From positions 62,001-126,000 of the forward strand of contig JASJCI010000001.1 in assembly GCA_030066085.1 (NCBI GenBank): a stretch of 64,000 nt of DNA, read 5' to 3'. A program made the translations under genes and the position numbers. The stretch comes from Gammaproteobacteria bacterium. GTDB lineage: Bacteria > Pseudomonadota > Gammaproteobacteria > GCA-001735895. Positions 50,893 through 58,522 of this stretch are shown here, piece after piece (the first letter of the stretch is position 1; every line of letters starts with the position of its first letter). The notes beneath the pieces were generated by a model. The model did not search any database, was not told the origin of the DNA, and saw only the letters and a program-made list of their open reading frames with translations.

Positions 50893-51930
50893 TCAGGTTT
50901 CGACCGGGTAGCCCGCCTTTTCCCAGTCGGGCATGCCGCTGTGGCTGACGCAAACCACGTGATTCAGCCCCTGGAAACTCAGGTTGGTCATGGTCGTTTG
51001 CGCGCGCCGGCCCGAGCGACAGTAGAGGTAAACACGCTCGAACTGGCGCAGTTCATCGACGTGGCCGTTCTCGGTTCCCATCGGTATGTTGCGCGCACCC
51101 GGCACGTGACCGCGGGCAAATTCGTCGGGCGTTCGATTATCCATGACCAGCGTGCTCTTCGGCAGGTCCTGCCACACGCCATGCAGATCATCCATACTGA
51201 AATCGCGTAATAGATAGCGGTTGGCGTCGAAATTGATGCCGACGCTCATGTTGGCCGGAACCGCCTCGTTGATGCGCTTGGGCATGTCGAGGTTGAGGTT
51301 GTTCATCAGGTCGACGAATTCCTGCCGCGGCCGCCCGCCGCCGAGGCGCGGATTCCAGCGTTTCTCCTCGCCGATGGTCGAACTGGTGCGGCCGTTGTAA
51401 TCGTGCGCGGGGTACACGATCGTGTCGTCGCTCAGCACGAACAGTTTGTGCGTGATGCTGTCGTAGAGCTGGCCAGCGTCGCCATTCTGGAAGTCAGTTC
51501 GTCCGCAACCGCGAATCAACAGCGTATCGCCACTGAACAGCATGCCGTCGACAAAGTAACAGGTGCAGCCGTTGGTATGCCCGGGCGTGAACAGCGCACG
51601 CACCTGGTAATGACCGAGGGTAATCGTTTCGCCGTCAGCAAGCGGGATATCGATGGCCTCGATGCCGGAATCGCGGCCGTATACCAGCCTGGCGCCGACC
51701 TGCTCGCGCAGCTTGCCGGACGAGGTGATGTGATCGGCATGCGCGTGGGTCTCGATCGCGTACAGCAGCTCGACCCCGAGTTCGTTGATGATTTGCAGGT
51801 CGCGCTCGAACAGCTCGAGCACCGGGTCGATAATCGCGCCCTCGCCCGTCTGCGGATCGATCAGCAGGTAGGTGTAGGTACAGCTTTCGCGGTCGAACAG
51901 CTGTTTAACGGTCAGGCGGGGCGTGGTCAT
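50893..51930 (-). CDS. Persulfide dioxygenase-rhodanese fusion
   Basis: 345-residue protein: N-terminal metallo-beta-lactamase domain (about 1-230) of the ETHE1 persulfide dioxygenase kind, with THAHADH at 61-67, His118 (PGHTNG), Asp135 (FSGDTLLIRGCGRTDFQ) and His176 (YPAHDY) as iron ligands; C-terminal rhodanese domain (about 255-345) with active-site Cys304 in YLYCRSGRRA. Such fusions act on glutathione persulfide and thiosulfate. ATG at 51930; longer frame upstream is not family-like. Divergent from a NERD gene. Confidence 0.9.
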   Translation of the reverse strand: MTTPRLTVKQLFDRESCTYTYLLIDPQTGEGAIIDPVLELFERDLQIINELGVELLYAIETHAHADHITSSGKLREQVGARLVYGRDSGIEAIDIPLADGETITLGHYQVRALFTPGHTNGCTCYFVDGMLFSGDTLLIRGCGRTDFQNGDAGQLYDSITHKLFVLSDDTIVYPAHDYNGRTSSTIGEEKRWNPRLGGGRPRQEFVDLMNNLNLDMPKRINEAVPANMSVGINFDANRYLLRDFSMDDLHGVWQDLPKSTLVMDNRTPDEFARGHVPGARNIPMGTENGHVDELRQFERVYLYCRSGRRAQTTMTNLSFQGLNHVVCVSHSGMPDWEKAGYPVET

Positions 51931-52018
51931 GATCGAAAGCTCGCGCAACGGGAAGCGCCAGTTTAGATTTTGCCGCCGCGGATGGCAATTTGGCGTGCTT
52001 GGGATAATATTCAGACTC

Positions 52019-52633
52019 ATGGCAAACGAACAATGGACATCGTCGATCGATTTCGCCTCGGGAGCGATCGCGCTGGCAATCCTGCTGGTTGGCCTGGCCC
52101 TGATCCTGTATCTCAACCGCGCACCTCTGCTGCTGCGCTGGCGCGACTGGCGCCTGCAGCGCAGCCTGGACCGGATCGGCTGCGAGCAGATTCGCCGGCT
52201 GGCCTGCGATGACGGCCTCGACGGCACGCACGAAATCGACCGCCTGGCGCTGGTCGACGACGCCATCCTGATCGTTTCCTACAAACCCTACCGGGGCAAT
52301 ATTTACTGCGCCGAGCAAATCGACCAGTGGACCCAGGTTATCGGCCAGAAGAGTTTCAAGTTCGCCAACCCGCTGTTCGAACTGGAAAACCAGATCGCAT
52401 CGCTGCGCCTGCTCGTCGGCAATGCCCCCGTGCGCGGTTTTCTCTACTTCGGCCAGGGCGCCGTCTTTCCCAAGGGTCATCCCGAAGCGGTACTTTATCC
52501 CGACAATATGCCGGCTTCGCTGCTGGCGGCGAACTGTACTTCCCCGCGCAAGGATGTCGCCACGGCCTGGGCACTGCTGAAAGCGCACCGGGATGGCGCT
52601 CCGACCGCGGACCGGATCGGCGCGAAAACTTGA
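52019..52633 (+). CDS. Small NERD-domain membrane protein
   Basis: 204 residues. One transmembrane helix (about 12-32, ASGAIALAILLVGLALILYL) followed by a nuclease-related domain (LDRIGCEQIRRLACDDGLDGTHEIDRLALVDDAILIVSYKPYRGNIYCAEQIDQWTQ), then a C-terminal variable region. NERD domains occur in nucleic-acid-linked proteins; catalytic acid (D) and SYKP Lys positions are present. No partner helicase is nearby. ATG 52019 is preceded by GGATAATAT, an AT-rich -10-like site rather than a good ribosome site. Confidence 0.65.
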   Translation: MANEQWTSSIDFASGAIALAILLVGLALILYLNRAPLLLRWRDWRLQRSLDRIGCEQIRRLACDDGLDGTHEIDRLALVDDAILIVSYKPYRGNIYCAEQIDQWTQVIGQKSFKFANPLFELENQIASLRLLVGNAPVRGFLYFGQGAVFPKGHPEAVLYPDNMPASLLAANCTSPRKDVATAWALLKAHRDGAPTADRIGAKT

Positions 52634-52749: not shown

Positions 52750-53841
52750 ATGAAACGTCGTGACGTACTCAAAGGTGGCGTTGCCGCCGCACTCGCAACC
52801 GGCGCAGGCGCGGTATCCGCTCCCGCCATCGCGCAGGGACGCATCGAGATCAACATGGTATCGACCTGGCCGCGGGATTTCCCGGGTCTCGGTACCGGCG
52901 CGCAGCGCTTCGCCGAGCGCCTGACCGCCATGACCGATGGCCGCATGAAGGTCAACTACTTCGCCGCCGGCGAGCGGGTCAAGGCCTTCGACTCCTTCGA
53001 CGAGGTCGCATCCGGCAACGCGCAGATGTACCACGCCGCGGATTACTACTGGAAAGGCAAGCACCCCGGCTGGGCTTACTTCACCGCGGTTCCGTTCGGC
53101 ATGACCTACACCGAGATCAACTCCTGGATCCAGTTCGGTGGCGGCCAGGCGCTGTGGGACGAAGTCGCCGCTGAATTCGGCCTCAAGTGCCTGCCCTGCG
53201 GCAACACCGGCGTGCAGATGGGCGGCTGGTTCCGCAAGGAAATGCGCTCCGCAGCCGATTTCAAGGGCCTCAAGATGCGTATCCCGGGCCTCGGCGGCGA
53301 CGTTCTCGCCAAGCTCGGCGCGTCCCCGGTCTCGCTGCCGGGCGGCCAGATCTACGAAAACCTCGTATCGGGCGCGATCGACGCCACCGAGTGGGTCGGT
53401 CCGTGGAACGACAGCTTCATGAAGTTCTACGAAGCCGCCAAGTTCTACTACTACCCGGGAATGCACGAGCCGGCGGCCCAGCTGGCGGTTGGCATGAACA
53501 AGAAGTGGTGGGATGGCCTCAGCAAGTCGGACCAGATGATCATCACCGCCGCGGCGGAGATGGAAAACTCGGTCATGATGTCGGAATACAACGCCAAGAA
53601 CGGCGCCTCGCTGGCAAGCCTGATCTCCGACCAGGGCGTCAAGCTGCGCAGCTTCAGCGACGATATCTACGACAGCTTCGGCGATGCCGCGGCGGAAGTC
53701 TTCGAGGGAGTGCAGCAGCACAGCCCGCTGGCCAAGAAGATCCACCAGAGCTTCCTGGCTTCGCGTGACGAGGTCGGGGCCTGGGCCAAGATCTCGGACC
53801 AGGCCTACGTTGCCCAGCGCAACCGCGTACTGGGCCTGTAA
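52750..53841 (+). CDS. TRAP transporter substrate-binding protein (DctP/TakP-like)
   Basis: 363-residue periplasmic binding protein with a twin-arginine signal (MKRRDVLKGGVAAALATGAG). It is nearest to the TakP group for 2-oxo acids: Arg177 (GLKMRIPG) and Glu214-Trp215 (ATEWVGPW), the residues known in TakP for carboxylate and sodium binding, are present. Length matches TakP. It lies upstream of the two permease genes, with a hairpin between, so it is probably made in excess. The real ligand cannot be read from sequence. Confidence 0.88.
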   Translation: MKRRDVLKGGVAAALATGAGAVSAPAIAQGRIEINMVSTWPRDFPGLGTGAQRFAERLTAMTDGRMKVNYFAAGERVKAFDSFDEVASGNAQMYHAADYYWKGKHPGWAYFTAVPFGMTYTEINSWIQFGGGQALWDEVAAEFGLKCLPCGNTGVQMGGWFRKEMRSAADFKGLKMRIPGLGGDVLAKLGASPVSLPGGQIYENLVSGAIDATEWVGPWNDSFMKFYEAAKFYYYPGMHEPAAQLAVGMNKKWWDGLSKSDQMIITAAAEMENSVMMSEYNAKNGASLASLISDQGVKLRSFSDDIYDSFGDAAAEVFEGVQQHSPLAKKIHQSFLASRDEVGAWAKISDQAYVAQRNRVLGL

Positions 53842-53863
53842 CCGGTCAAGGTAAGCCAAGCAG

Positions 53864-53889
53864 AAAACGGAGTCCTCGGACTCCGTTTT
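53864..53889 (+). terminator. Hairpin between the TRAP binding protein and permease genes
   Basis: AAAACGGAGTCC-TC-GGACTCCGTTTT (53864-53875 and 53878-53889) is a perfect 12-bp stem ending in four T and continuing CG. It is an intrinsic terminator or attenuator lowering permease expression relative to the binding protein. Confidence 0.75.
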
Positions 53890-53914
53890 CGTTGGTCCCC
53901 GTTGTGTTCGCAAT

Positions 53915-54961
53915 ATGTTGACAGAGAAGACGCCAGTGCTCGCCCGTGCCTTTGCTTACGCGATGGTGGCCAGCGTTTTTCTCTACCTGCTGAATAATTA
54001 CCTGGTGTTCTGGCAGGATCTGCCCGGCACCTACGGCCTCGCGCTGCATTACGGCTGGTTCGGTCTCGAAGTCGAGGCGCTGGACGAATCCCGAATCGGC
54101 GCGGGCTGGGCCCAGTTGCTGTTCTACCTCGCCGTAATCCTGCTGAGCATCGGCTACGCGTTCAGGAGCAGCGATCGCAGCCTGGAGGATGACAGCATCC
54201 GCTTCGCCCGCCTGTCGGCCTACCTCGTGCGCTTCGCTTTCTGGTCCGTGCTGCTGGTCGGCGCGGCCGACATGATCATTTCGCTGCTGCGCGTGGAAGG
54301 CCTGCTCGAATACGTGGTTGGCGAGTGGTTGGCCAACCAGCTGGGGCGCTCGATTTTTCGCGGCACCTGGGTGCACTACCCGCTGATTTTCGTCTCGCTG
54401 TTCGTGGCGGCCCGCTTGCGCAACATCAGTTTTACCTGGCTGGCGCTGCTGTGTGTACTGGCTGAGTTCATGATTGTCATCACGCGTTTCGTGTTTTCCT
54501 ACGAGCAGGCCTACATGGGCGACCTGGTGCGTTTCTGGTATGCCGCGCTGTTCCTGTTCGCCAGTGCCTACACGCTGGTCGAGGAAGGGCACGTGCGCGT
54601 CGACGTGCTCTACGCCGGTTTCCGCCGGCGGCGCAAGGCGACCTTCGACACCATCGGCTGCCTGCTCCTCGGCATGCCGATCTGCTGGGTCATCCTGATG
54701 CAGGGTATGGGGGGTCGCGGTAACAGTATCAACAGCCCGCTGCTCTCCTTCGAGGTTTCGCAGAGCGGCTTCGGCATGTACGTCAAGTACCTGATGGCGG
54801 CGTTTCTGATCATTTTCGCGGTTACGATGCTGATCCAGTTCGTCAGTTACCTCCTCTACAACGTCGCCCAGCTGCTCGACCGCGGCGAGCACGAGGAGCG
54901 GTTGACCTACTACCAGTTGATATCCGGCGACCATACCGGCAACGTGGGCGCGGGACACTAG
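53915..54961 (+). CDS. TRAP transporter small permease subunit, enlarged (DctQ)
   Basis: 348 residues, about twice the usual DctQ length (roughly 170-200). It contains seven to eight hydrophobic segments; the C-terminal half (EEGHVRVDVLYAGF, then GCLLLGMPICWVIL..YLMAAFLIIF) is the conserved DctQ domain, and the N-terminal half adds about four transmembrane helices with several charged loops. ATG at 53915 has no clear ribosome-binding site. Ends 1 nt before dctM. Confidence 0.85.
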   Translation: MLTEKTPVLARAFAYAMVASVFLYLLNNYLVFWQDLPGTYGLALHYGWFGLEVEALDESRIGAGWAQLLFYLAVILLSIGYAFRSSDRSLEDDSIRFARLSAYLVRFAFWSVLLVGAADMIISLLRVEGLLEYVVGEWLANQLGRSIFRGTWVHYPLIFVSLFVAARLRNISFTWLALLCVLAEFMIVITRFVFSYEQAYMGDLVRFWYAALFLFASAYTLVEEGHVRVDVLYAGFRRRRKATFDTIGCLLLGMPICWVILMQGMGGRGNSINSPLLSFEVSQSGFGMYVKYLMAAFLIIFAVTMLIQFVSYLLYNVAQLLDRGEHEERLTYYQLISGDHTGNVGAGH

Positions 54962-54962
54962 C

Positions 54963-57626
54963 ATGGAACTGTATTTCCTCCTGCTGCTGGTCCTGTTGAT
55001 GGTTTTTGCCCTGACCTCGGGCTTTCCGGTGGCCTTTGCGCTGCCCGGGTCGGCGGTGCTGGCAATTGCAATCGCGGCGCTCTGCGGCTGGCTGTTCGAG
55101 GGTAACGTCGACGCCTACTTCGCGCTCGGCGGGCCCAATCAATGGCTCAGTGCCGGGGTCACCAATTACCGAAGTCTGTACTGGGTCGTGGAACGGGATA
55201 CGCTGATCGCGATCCCGCTGTTCATCTTCATGGGCATCATGCTGCAGCGCTCGCGCATCGCCGAGGACCTGCTGGTGGCGATGGCGCAGCTGTTCGGCCC
55301 GATTCCGGGCGGTCTCGGCATCTCGGTAGTATTCGTCGGCGCCCTGCTCGCGGCCACCACCGGTATCGTTGGCGCCACGGTCATCGCCATGGGCCTGATT
55401 TCGCTGCCGGCGATGTTGCGCAACAATTACTCCAAGTCGCTCGCCTGCGGCACGATATGCGCGTCGGGTACGCTCGGGCAGATCATTCCACCCTCGATCG
55501 TGTTGATTATCCTGGCCGACCAGCTATCCAACGCGGCCGACCAGGCCGCCACCGCGCGCAAGGCCGAGTACAAGGAAGCCACCGGCGAGTTCTCGATGCC
55601 GGGCGATTTCGACGTCGTTACCGCCAGCGCCGGCGACATGTTCATGGGCGCCTTTATTCCGGGCCTGATCCTGGTCGGCATCTACATGCTGTACATCCTG
55701 GTCTCGGCCCTGATCAAGCCGGCCAACGCGCCGCCGGTTCCGTTCGAAGGCCAGTACGATCGCAAGTTCATCCTCAAGGTGGTGCTGGCGCTGGTGCCGC
55801 CGCTGACGCTGATATTCATCGTCCTCGGCTCGATCATCCTCGGCGTCGCCACGGTCAACCAGGCCGGCGCCATCGGTGCGGTCGGCGCGATGATCATGGG
55901 CAGCTACCGCCTGCTGGAAGGCAAGAAAAGCGCCTATTACCCCGCGATCCTGGCAATTGCCTCGATCGTCGCACTGGTTATCCTGCTCAATATCTTCGAC
56001 CTTAACATCAAGAACGTGACCAGCGGCTTCGATGCCTTCGGTATCGCGCTGGCCTGTATCGCCGTTATCGGGTTGATTACCGCAGTCGGCTGGGCAACGG
56101 TCAGGGCCTACCAGATCGACGATACCCTGCGCGGCGTCATGCTGGACACCGCCAAGACCACGTCGATGGTCTTCATCATCCTGCTCGGCGCGGCCATGCT
56201 GACCTCGGCGTTTCGCGCCTTCGGCGGCGAAGAACTGGTCAAGGAGCACCTGACCGCGCTGCCCGGCGGTTTCTGGACCCAGTTCATCGTCGTCATGGCG
56301 GTTATCTTCTTCCTCGGCTTCTTTCTCGACTTTCTCGAGATTGCCGTGGTGGTGGTACCGATCGTCGCGCCGATCCTGCTGGCCGACCCGAGCGCCAACG
56401 TCACCGCGGTCTGGTTCGGCGTCATGGTGGGGCTCAACATCCAGACGTCGTTTTTGACACCACCCTTCGGCTTTTCGCTATTTTATCTACGCGGGGTGGC
56501 GCCCAAGGAAGTGCGCACGCTGCAGATTTACCGGGGCGCAGTTGCGTTCATCGCACTGCAGCTCACCGGTCTCGCCATCGCCGGCACCTTCCCGAGCCTG
56601 GTCAACTACCTGCCGAACAAGACCCAGCTGATTTCCGAGACCGCGCCGCCGCCGAGCAATCCGAAGCTGCAGGAGTGCCTCGAGGAGTACCAGTTCGTCA
56701 TTTACGATCGTGACCGCGCACAGATCGAAGCCAGTATCGAGCGTATCCGTGGCGTGAACATCGATTTCCTGCCGGACGAATACCAGCAGCGCCTGAACGA
56801 AAGCTACCAGATGGCGGCCGCCAGCTTCGACAGGATCGAGAACATCCGTGAGGCCGAACAGGCGATGGCCGAATTTGCGCCGAGCTACCGGCCGCTGCAC
56901 ATCGAGGTCCGCGGTATCCAGAAGTCGAAGCGCCGTCTCGATGCCGACATCGAGGATCTAAACGAGGAACGCCAGCGTCTCGCGTTCACCGAGCCCGTCG
57001 ACGAACAACGGATCGAGCAGATCAAGGCCCGCATGGCCGGACTCGCGGCCGAACGGGACGCGCTCGCCACCGGTATCCCGGAAAACTGGGAGGCTGAACG
57101 CGCCCGTTTCAACGAGTTGGCGAAGGCCGAGACTCGCGCGCGGCGCGAATATCGGCAAAACGCCGACGACGCCTACTCGATGATCGTGACCATGCGCAAG
57201 ATGATCGACCAGACCGATGCCCTGGCGGCGCTGGAACCGCGCTACCAACCGCTGATCCAGGAGATCCGCGACAAGTCAGCCGAAGAGGGACTGGAAGCGA
57301 TCAAGGCGCTGGAGTTCGAGCTCGACTCGCTGATCGAAACCCACCGGATCAAGTCGAAACTGTCGCGCGCCAAGCGCGCCCTGCGCGGCACCAACCCGGA
57401 CAAGGACAAGGCCATCGACGAAATCATGCAGTCGGCCGAACGACTGCGCGAAGAAATCGTTTGGTACCAGCGCGCCCGCAGCGACCTGGGTGAAGAACTG
57501 GCGGCATACGACGAGGCAATTCGCCTGACCATCGGCATGCGCCTGCAATCGCGCCTGACGAGCGAACAGGCCGAGTCCATCGCCAGCTGCCGCGCGGTGC
57601 ACAAAGACCTGACGCTGTTCTTCTAA
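54963..57626 (+). CDS. TRAP transporter large permease, with inserted helices and coiled-coil C-terminal tail (DctM)
   Basis: 887 residues; usual DctM has about 430. The transmembrane part (1-550) starts FLLLLVLLMVFALTSGFPVAFALPGSAV and has conserved GGLGISVVF..ATTGIVGATVIAMG; a longer loop (about 185-220), and an insertion (about 314-390) that adds two helices, are atypical. From about residue 552 to 887 there is a hydrophilic, Glu/Arg/Gln-rich tail with strong heptad character (for example EDLNEERQRLAFTEPVDEQR), predicted cytoplasmic and coiled coil. No known domain was recognised. Followed by AEC and MFS carriers. Confidence 0.8.
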   Translation: MELYFLLLLVLLMVFALTSGFPVAFALPGSAVLAIAIAALCGWLFEGNVDAYFALGGPNQWLSAGVTNYRSLYWVVERDTLIAIPLFIFMGIMLQRSRIAEDLLVAMAQLFGPIPGGLGISVVFVGALLAATTGIVGATVIAMGLISLPAMLRNNYSKSLACGTICASGTLGQIIPPSIVLIILADQLSNAADQAATARKAEYKEATGEFSMPGDFDVVTASAGDMFMGAFIPGLILVGIYMLYILVSALIKPANAPPVPFEGQYDRKFILKVVLALVPPLTLIFIVLGSIILGVATVNQAGAIGAVGAMIMGSYRLLEGKKSAYYPAILAIASIVALVILLNIFDLNIKNVTSGFDAFGIALACIAVIGLITAVGWATVRAYQIDDTLRGVMLDTAKTTSMVFIILLGAAMLTSAFRAFGGEELVKEHLTALPGGFWTQFIVVMAVIFFLGFFLDFLEIAVVVVPIVAPILLADPSANVTAVWFGVMVGLNIQTSFLTPPFGFSLFYLRGVAPKEVRTLQIYRGAVAFIALQLTGLAIAGTFPSLVNYLPNKTQLISETAPPPSNPKLQECLEEYQFVIYDRDRAQIEASIERIRGVNIDFLPDEYQQRLNESYQMAAASFDRIENIREAEQAMAEFAPSYRPLHIEVRGIQKSKRRLDADIEDLNEERQRLAFTEPVDEQRIEQIKARMAGLAAERDALATGIPENWEAERARFNELAKAETRARREYRQNADDAYSMIVTMRKMIDQTDALAALEPRYQPLIQEIRDKSAEEGLEAIKALEFELDSLIETHRIKSKLSRAKRALRGTNPDKDKAIDEIMQSAERLREEIVWYQRARSDLGEELAAYDEAIRLTIGMRLQSRLTSEQAESIASCRAVHKDLTLFF

Positions 57627-57631
57627 GCCCG

Positions 57632-58522
57632 ATGTCCCAGGCCGACCTGGTTTATCGCATTTTTGCGATCATCTTTCCCGTGTTCTCGATCGTGACCGTG
57701 GGCTACCTGTATGCCCGGATGCGCCACGATACGGACATGTCGTCGGGCAACCGTCTCAACATGGATATCTTCACGCCGGCGCTGATCTTCGACATCATGT
57801 CGGCCAGCAACTACGCGCTCTCCGACTACCTGTGGCTCGGGTTGGCCGGGGTCGCGGTGGTGCTCGGCTCGGGCCTGGTCGCGTGGCCGGTGGCGAGGTT
57901 ATTCGGCTACCAGTGGAAAACCCTGGTGCCGCCGATGATGTTCAACAACTGCGGCAACATGGGCCTGCCGCTGATCGTGCTGGCTTTCGGCGAACCGGCG
58001 CTGGCGCCGGCGGTGATCCTGTTTGCATTGTCCAACTTCCTGCACTTCGGGGTCGGGCTGCAGCTGATCACGCAGCACTGGTCGCCGCGCGCGGTACTGC
58101 AAAACCCGATGATTCTCGCCACGGTGCTCGGTATCGGTGTTTCGCTGCTCGGCATCGAGCTGCACGAAACCCTGCGCCTGCCGATCCACCTGCTCGGCCA
58201 GATCGCGATACCGCTGATGCTGTTTTCGCTCGGCGTGCGCATGATCGGCATCGATTTCCGCGACTGGCAGCCGGGCGTGCTCGGCGCCCTGCTGTGCCCG
58301 CTCAGCGGCCTCGTAATCGCGGTCGCCTGTATCCTGTTCATCCCGTTGCCGGCCGATCAGCAGGCCGTCCTGTTGCTGTTCAGCGCGCTGCCACCGGCCG
58401 TGCTGAACTTCATGGTGGCCGAGCGCTATAACCAGGAACCGCAGCGCGTGGCCTCGATCGTGCTGATCGGCAATCTTGCCAGTATCCTGGTCATACCCGG
58501 CGTGCTCTGGTTCATCCTGTGA
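57632..58522 (+). CDS. AEC (auxin efflux carrier) family transporter
   Basis: 296-residue membrane protein with about ten helices in two inverted halves: IFAIIFPVFSIVTVGYLYARM at the start, FTPALIFDI, the conserved NCGNMGLPLIVLAFGEPALAPAVILFA mid-motif and ALPPAVLNFMVAERYN near the C-terminus. Members move organic acids or amino acids. Starts 6 nt after dctM; likely same transcript. Confidence 0.87.
   Translation: MSQADLVYRIFAIIFPVFSIVTVGYLYARMRHDTDMSSGNRLNMDIFTPALIFDIMSASNYALSDYLWLGLAGVAVVLGSGLVAWPVARLFGYQWKTLVPPMMFNNCGNMGLPLIVLAFGEPALAPAVILFALSNFLHFGVGLQLITQHWSPRAVLQNPMILATVLGIGVSLLGIELHETLRLPIHLLGQIAIPLMLFSLGVRMIGIDFRDWQPGVLGALLCPLSGLVIAVACILFIPLPADQQAVLLLFSALPPAVLNFMVAERYNQEPQRVASIVLIGNLASILVIPGVLWFIL

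Follow-up and report, generated by a model that had tools for sequence, protein, structure and literature searches.

A TRAP transporter large permease with a C-terminal helical tail, inferred to be periplasmic, and an enlarged small permease

Overview

The window analyzed here, a continuous stretch of 64,000 nucleotides of gammaproteobacterial DNA, contains at 52750-57626 a complete P-Q-M TRAP operon whose large permease (M) carries a helical tail of 335 residues beyond its membrane part. We propose, at a probability of roughly 0.5, that this operon encodes a 2-oxo-acid TRAP importer in which M has gained a C-terminal periplasmic stalk and the small permease (Q) about four extra helices, and in which the stalk provides a mechanical link to the binding protein (P). 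A literature search for a tailed TRAP large permease (coiled coil, C-terminal extension, unusual domain), with most subscription papers outside its coverage, returned no description of one, in agreement with the initial annotation of this DNA, which knew of no TRAP subtype of this shape.

A P-Q-M operon with a tail-bearing M subunit

M is an open reading frame of 887 amino acids on the plus strand (54963-57626) that starts one base past the Q stop codon. Residues 1 to ~552 (54963-56618, plus strand) correspond to Pfam DctM (PF06808), with a match of 206 bits against a curated cut-off of 23.8 (E 1e-60); on the NCBIfam dctM subfamily model TIGR00786, M scores 259.4 bits, slightly below the curated cut-off of 268.45. 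The last 335 residues (553-887; 56619-57626 including the stop codon, plus strand) are hydrophilic and bear out the large, heptad-rich C-terminal tail first noticed by eye. The genes for P (363 amino acids, 52750-53841, plus strand) and Q (348 amino acids, 53915-54961, plus strand) lie immediately upstream, within 52750-54961, and the P-Q-M order is kept across relatives. The other TRAP M subunits of the same genome are open frames of ~470-610 residues, none of them tailed.

Among the relatives, no neighbor gene is conserved beyond P-Q-M, and the neighborhood therefore gives no hint of the substrate. In the window, M is directly followed on the same strand by a gene for an AEC-type membrane transport protein (57632-58522; Pfam Mem_trans), which adjoins only a few relatives, and the minus-strand open reading frame at 50893-52266 has a C-terminal part that, by eye, resembles a metallo-beta-lactamase-fold protein with a rhodanese domain.

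Distribution and origin of the tail

The tail is widespread and conserved: we collected 171 distinct tail-bearing M homologs, nearly all with tails of 326-338 residues, and no Pfam family describes them (across 79 tails, none matches more than seven, and all of those that match are of coiled-coil or helical type). Full-length homologs of the same architecture occur in the genus and family of the source genome, and the wider range takes in gammaproteobacteria, alphaproteobacteria, Pelagibacteraceae, SAR324, and Desulfobacterota, the bacteria being mostly marine. In the genomes sampled, the tail was found in 49 of 296 from the family of genome G267, in 21 of 289 from the class of genome G138, in about 12 convincing cases out of 369 from the window's own class, and in 8 of 397 from its phylum. 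Throughout the ~1,400 genomes scanned, tail matches above the coiled-coil background sit in DctM-sized frames, with a few exceptions cut by contig ends, and no stand-alone tail gene was found; weak profile matches in non-DctM frames (E 1e-5 to 1e-3) look like coiled-coil background. Three genomes (G032, G317, and G991) each hold two tailed copies, which are paralogs.

A maximum-likelihood tree built on the membrane part of M alone, with 30 tail-bearing rows and tail-less relatives, separates all 30 tailed rows from the tail-less ones by a branch of 100/100 support, which makes a single gain of the tail most likely; taken together with the wide spread, the single origin suggests horizontal transfer as well. 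Within the tail clade, the lineage that splits off deepest is L139, one of the two G317 copies. A frameshift or an assembly fusion of two genes, which should have shown itself as loss of the tail in relatives, is ruled out by the 171 homologs, in which the tail is kept, and by their one origin. In one draft genome (L058, 4991-7532), a tail-type M is divided between two frames, split near residue 435, probably through a sequencing or assembly error.

Two candidate variants were set aside. Matches in Phaeobacter plasmids seemed to reach query residues 710-790, as if from shorter, intermediate tails, but the annotated M proteins are ~516 amino acids long and tail-less. The 706-residue M of a genome of the same genus (L131, G003:C255, 3351-5468) owes its length to big internal insertions and has no tail; with an adjoining Q of at most 303 amino acids, it is another odd TRAP variant.

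The extra helix pair is a separate feature

Relative to ordinary M subunits, the membrane part also contains an extra helix pair (residues 318-387, 55914-56123, plus strand), modeled as helices 326-344 and 355-384 and probably a scaffold element that lies between TM8 and TM9. The initial annotation had pointed it out along with the tail. The pair is present, as claimed, but is not tied to the tail: the tail-less relatives L099, L127, L129, L130, and L136 have 60-66 equivalent residues, whereas the tail-less L002, L006, L104, L133, L134, and L144 have only 6-8. By these sequence comparisons, the pair is a feature independent of the tail.

Location of the tail

We hold with high confidence, as a strong inference, that the tail is periplasmic and that Cys572 and Cys876 form a putative disulfide. 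The N-out/C-out topology of PpSiaM is the standard topology of TRAP M subunits (PMC9971032). In our model, residues 6-561 align with the whole PpSiaM chain (7qha_B, 1-427; Z 25.1, rmsd 4.0 over 388 residues), and the next matches are 9pym_A (Z 22.7), followed by ArsB, DASS, and VcINDY, which identifies an elevator fold of the SiaM/VcINDY-like kind, with moderate model confidence in the membrane part (pLDDT 50-60 around the hairpins). Since SiaM ends where the tail begins, and ends outside, the tail would emerge on the periplasmic side, the inserted helix pair keeping the parity. Charge follows the same pattern, with 3.2 K+R per sequence in residues 508-524, before the last helix, versus 1.0 in residues 541-560, after it.

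The cysteines point the same way. Every complete tail has exactly two, Cys572 (56676-56678, plus strand; C in 171/171) and Cys876 (57588-57590, plus strand; C in all 168 sequences that reach the position), and no other position of M is cysteine in at least half of the 171 sequences, so the membrane part has no conserved cysteine. Structural disulfides of this kind normally form in the periplasm. A lone invariant cysteine pair in a fast-evolving domain is typical of such a disulfide, and hence of the periplasm, and the pattern suggests that a putative 572-876 bond closes the base of the tail.

The tail was initially described as cytoplasmic if the topology is standard; the standard topology would place it on the other side. 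A tail on the cytoplasmic side, serving to bind a partner or to sense the cytoplasm, would agree with the coiled-coil appearance and the hydrophilicity, the only points that speak for it, but it conflicts with the C-out topology of SiaM and its end-to-end alignment, with the invariant cysteine pair, and with the charge distribution, and we regard it as highly improbable; cytoplasmic sensing, which the initial annotation had suggested, becomes unlikely with a periplasmic placement.

Architecture of the tail

Modeled alone with AlphaFold2, the tail folds confidently (mean pLDDT 95.5, pTM 0.86) and displays a coiled-coil arm. Mean-field covariation over 171 sequences independently yields an antiparallel hairpin, with pairs at i+j ~246-254 running, in tail numbering, from 62-189 to 118-135 (62-189, 65-184, 69-181, 86-160, 93-156, 100-152, 101-153, 104-150, 108-146, 111-139, and 118-135), and more antiparallel packing near the tail base. 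Judging from the covarying pairs 21-321 and 23-326, which flank the cysteine pair 20/324 in the same numbering, the first and last tail helices lie together.

The tail thus modeled is composed of three parts: a base closed by the probable disulfide, a helical bundle (residues ~745-843, 57195-57491, plus strand), and an antiparallel coiled-coil arm (residues ~614-742, 56802-57188, plus strand) with ~60 residues per strand and a hairpin tip near 675-680. The initial description as a coiled-coil tail therefore holds for the arm of ~130 residues, supported by both AlphaFold2 and covariation, and fails for the remainder, which is a compact helical domain. Structural alignment of the tail recovers generic four-helix bundles only (Z up to 10.8), the bundle itself resembling them at Z ~10 over 84-99 residues in a manner uninformative on function, and a Foldseek search with the tail gave no match below E 1e-3 (best E 0.02). 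The matches of the tail to PDB, viral, and Pfam entries reflect merely generic helical similarity, which by itself does not prove that the fold is novel. The periplasmic coiled coil of mycobacterial MmpL4 (9syj) offers an analogy only: it is a coiled coil that a transporter of the inner membrane extends into the periplasm. MmpL4 belongs to an unrelated transporter superfamily, and its weak match (Z 7.1 over 69 residues) is what any long helices would give.

Conservation is highest at the two ends of the tail. At the first, a PPP-NP linker (residues 562-567, 56646-56663, plus strand) leads from the last membrane helix into the tail, with P562, P563, N566, and P567 invariant in 79 sequences and P564 kept in at least 90%. 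At the second, the C-terminal segment (residues 856-887, 57528-57623, plus strand) follows the family pattern TIGLRxQ ... C ... HRDISLxF, with G858 and R860 invariant and Q862, H880, D882, S884, L885, and F887 conserved in at least 90%. The arm between them is variable in sequence and nearly fixed in length, and its tip is poorly conserved.

By residue count, the arm would reach 80-90 Angstrom, a length that could let it extend across the periplasm to peptidoglycan or to an outer-membrane partner such as a porin. We consider such a role very unlikely, as the tail has no Pfam peptidoglycan-binding domain, no outer-membrane gene is conserved next to the operon, and the tip that would make the contact is poorly conserved.

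The tail occurs together with an enlarged Q subunit

The Q subunit, whose enlargement in step with the tail was missed at first, is 348 residues long versus the usual 170-240 or so. Pfam DctQ covers only residues 185-312, the DctQ core starts at about residue 172, and the N-terminal extension (residues 1-171, 53915-54427, plus strand) has, from hydropathy and loop charges, about four predicted extra membrane helices and two predicted periplasmic loops. An N-in orientation is predicted for these four helices, the N-terminus and loop 82-104 being rich and loop 30-62 poor in K+R; loop 125-151, predicted to be periplasmic, has mixed charge, and the assignment is weaker there. The enlargement, of ~170 residues, is a constant companion of the tail: Q measures 317-361 residues in 161/161 tail systems with a readable Q, and no tail without an enlarged Q occurs in this sample. 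The Q subunits of the tail-less relatives compared match only from about residue 172 onward and thus lack the extension. Covariation between tail and Q (N=161) and between tail and P (N=142) is dominated by hub columns (M722, Q63, and P307) and gave no usable contacts.

The Q subunit extends the scaffold of a TRAP transporter (PMC9971032). Tail and enlarged Q are most simply read as working against each other. Their strict co-occurrence in this sample could also mean that tail and Q extension together only stabilize or dimerize the transporter, and oligomerization is indeed common for coiled coils, with many related elevator transporters being dimers. We find a static brace of this kind quite unlikely: by homology the tail sits on the moving domain, an odd site for such a brace, and an antiparallel hairpin better suits an intramolecular arm.

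The binding protein and the likely substrate

The P subunit is a TakP-like substrate-binding protein (Pfam DctP) with a twin-arginine-type signal (MKRRD), and its closest solved structures are 5cm6, 4pet, 2hzk (TakP), and 7ug8 (ketoacid-binding). TakP is a helix-swapped dimer, assembled through a long C-terminal helix, and the C-terminal region of P aligns with TakP up to query residue 353. In TakP, pyruvate and the cation are held by Y100, Q156, R177, E214, W215, and E240 (PMC1839085); all six are identical in the P of the window and are kept in 141-142 of the 142 P proteins of tail systems, which makes a 2-oxo acid, e.g., pyruvate, the likely substrate class. Tail-less systems also use TakP-type binding proteins, and the tail is therefore not required for such a substrate or binding protein. 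Of 71 tail systems, 67-68 retain an RR motif at the start of P, which suggests that P is exported by the Tat pathway. Unlike its relatives, the P of tail system L047 (2706-3884) has a lipobox-like motif (LLSGC) followed by a heptad-like spacer and is probably a lipoprotein anchored via a helical spacer.

A model for coupling between elevator and binding protein

The moving transport domain of SiaM consists of TMs 4-6 and 10-12, and the remainder stays fixed together with Q (PMC9971032). By homology, the tail would be attached to the moving elevator domain via TM12. We envision that the tail, beginning after this last M helix through a rigid PPP-NP linker and shut at its base by the probable Cys572-Cys876 disulfide, projects its coiled-coil arm into the periplasm and rides the elevator, while the Q extension enlarges the static scaffold. 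The arm or the base may then brace on the enlarged Q and on a docked P of the TakP-like kind. The position of the elevator would in this way be coupled to how P is captured, opened, or retained. Such coupling by the stalk is possible but still tentative. At a similar, tentative level, the system may be a TRAP subtype not described before, with a periplasmic stalk on the elevator that is closed by a disulfide and acts with an enlarged Q stator to keep the binding protein engaged through the cycle.

The arm might instead act as a periplasmic tether that merely keeps the TakP-like binding protein nearby, at high local concentration, with no transmission of elevator movement. A long arm of variable sequence and nearly fixed length would suit a tether, and the seeming anchorage of P by lipobox and heptad spacer in the close relative L047 hints at a possible benefit of tethering within the group. 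Yet tethering alone would leave unexplained both why the tail is so strictly paired with additional Q membrane helices and why the best conserved parts of the tail are its two ends near the membrane, and it appears unlikely to us.

Relation to known systems and significance

The sialic acid transporter SiaQM (P. profundum 7qha; H. influenzae 7qe5/8thi) shares with the present system the end-to-end M elevator fold and the P-Q-M organization, but SiaM stops at the tail start, SiaQ has 4 helices against ~8 predicted here, and its binding protein is of a different type. TakPQM of Rhodobacter sphaeroides (TakP, 2hzk/2hzl) has a closely related P with the six pyruvate and cation ligands identical; structural studies of that system cover TakP only. 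The tail-less M subunits of ~515-570 amino acids (Sneathiella L099, Phaeobacter plasmids L127 and L128, and others) have the DctM fold in common with the tailed ones but come with a short Q and no tail and fall on the opposite side of the fully supported branch.

How the binding protein is coupled to the elevator is poorly understood in TRAP transporters (PMC9971032). Here, a large domain on the presumed moving part and extra helices on the static part, always paired, including in Pelagibacteraceae, make this coupling directly testable, in a system that probably concerns the marine uptake of pyruvate-like acids.
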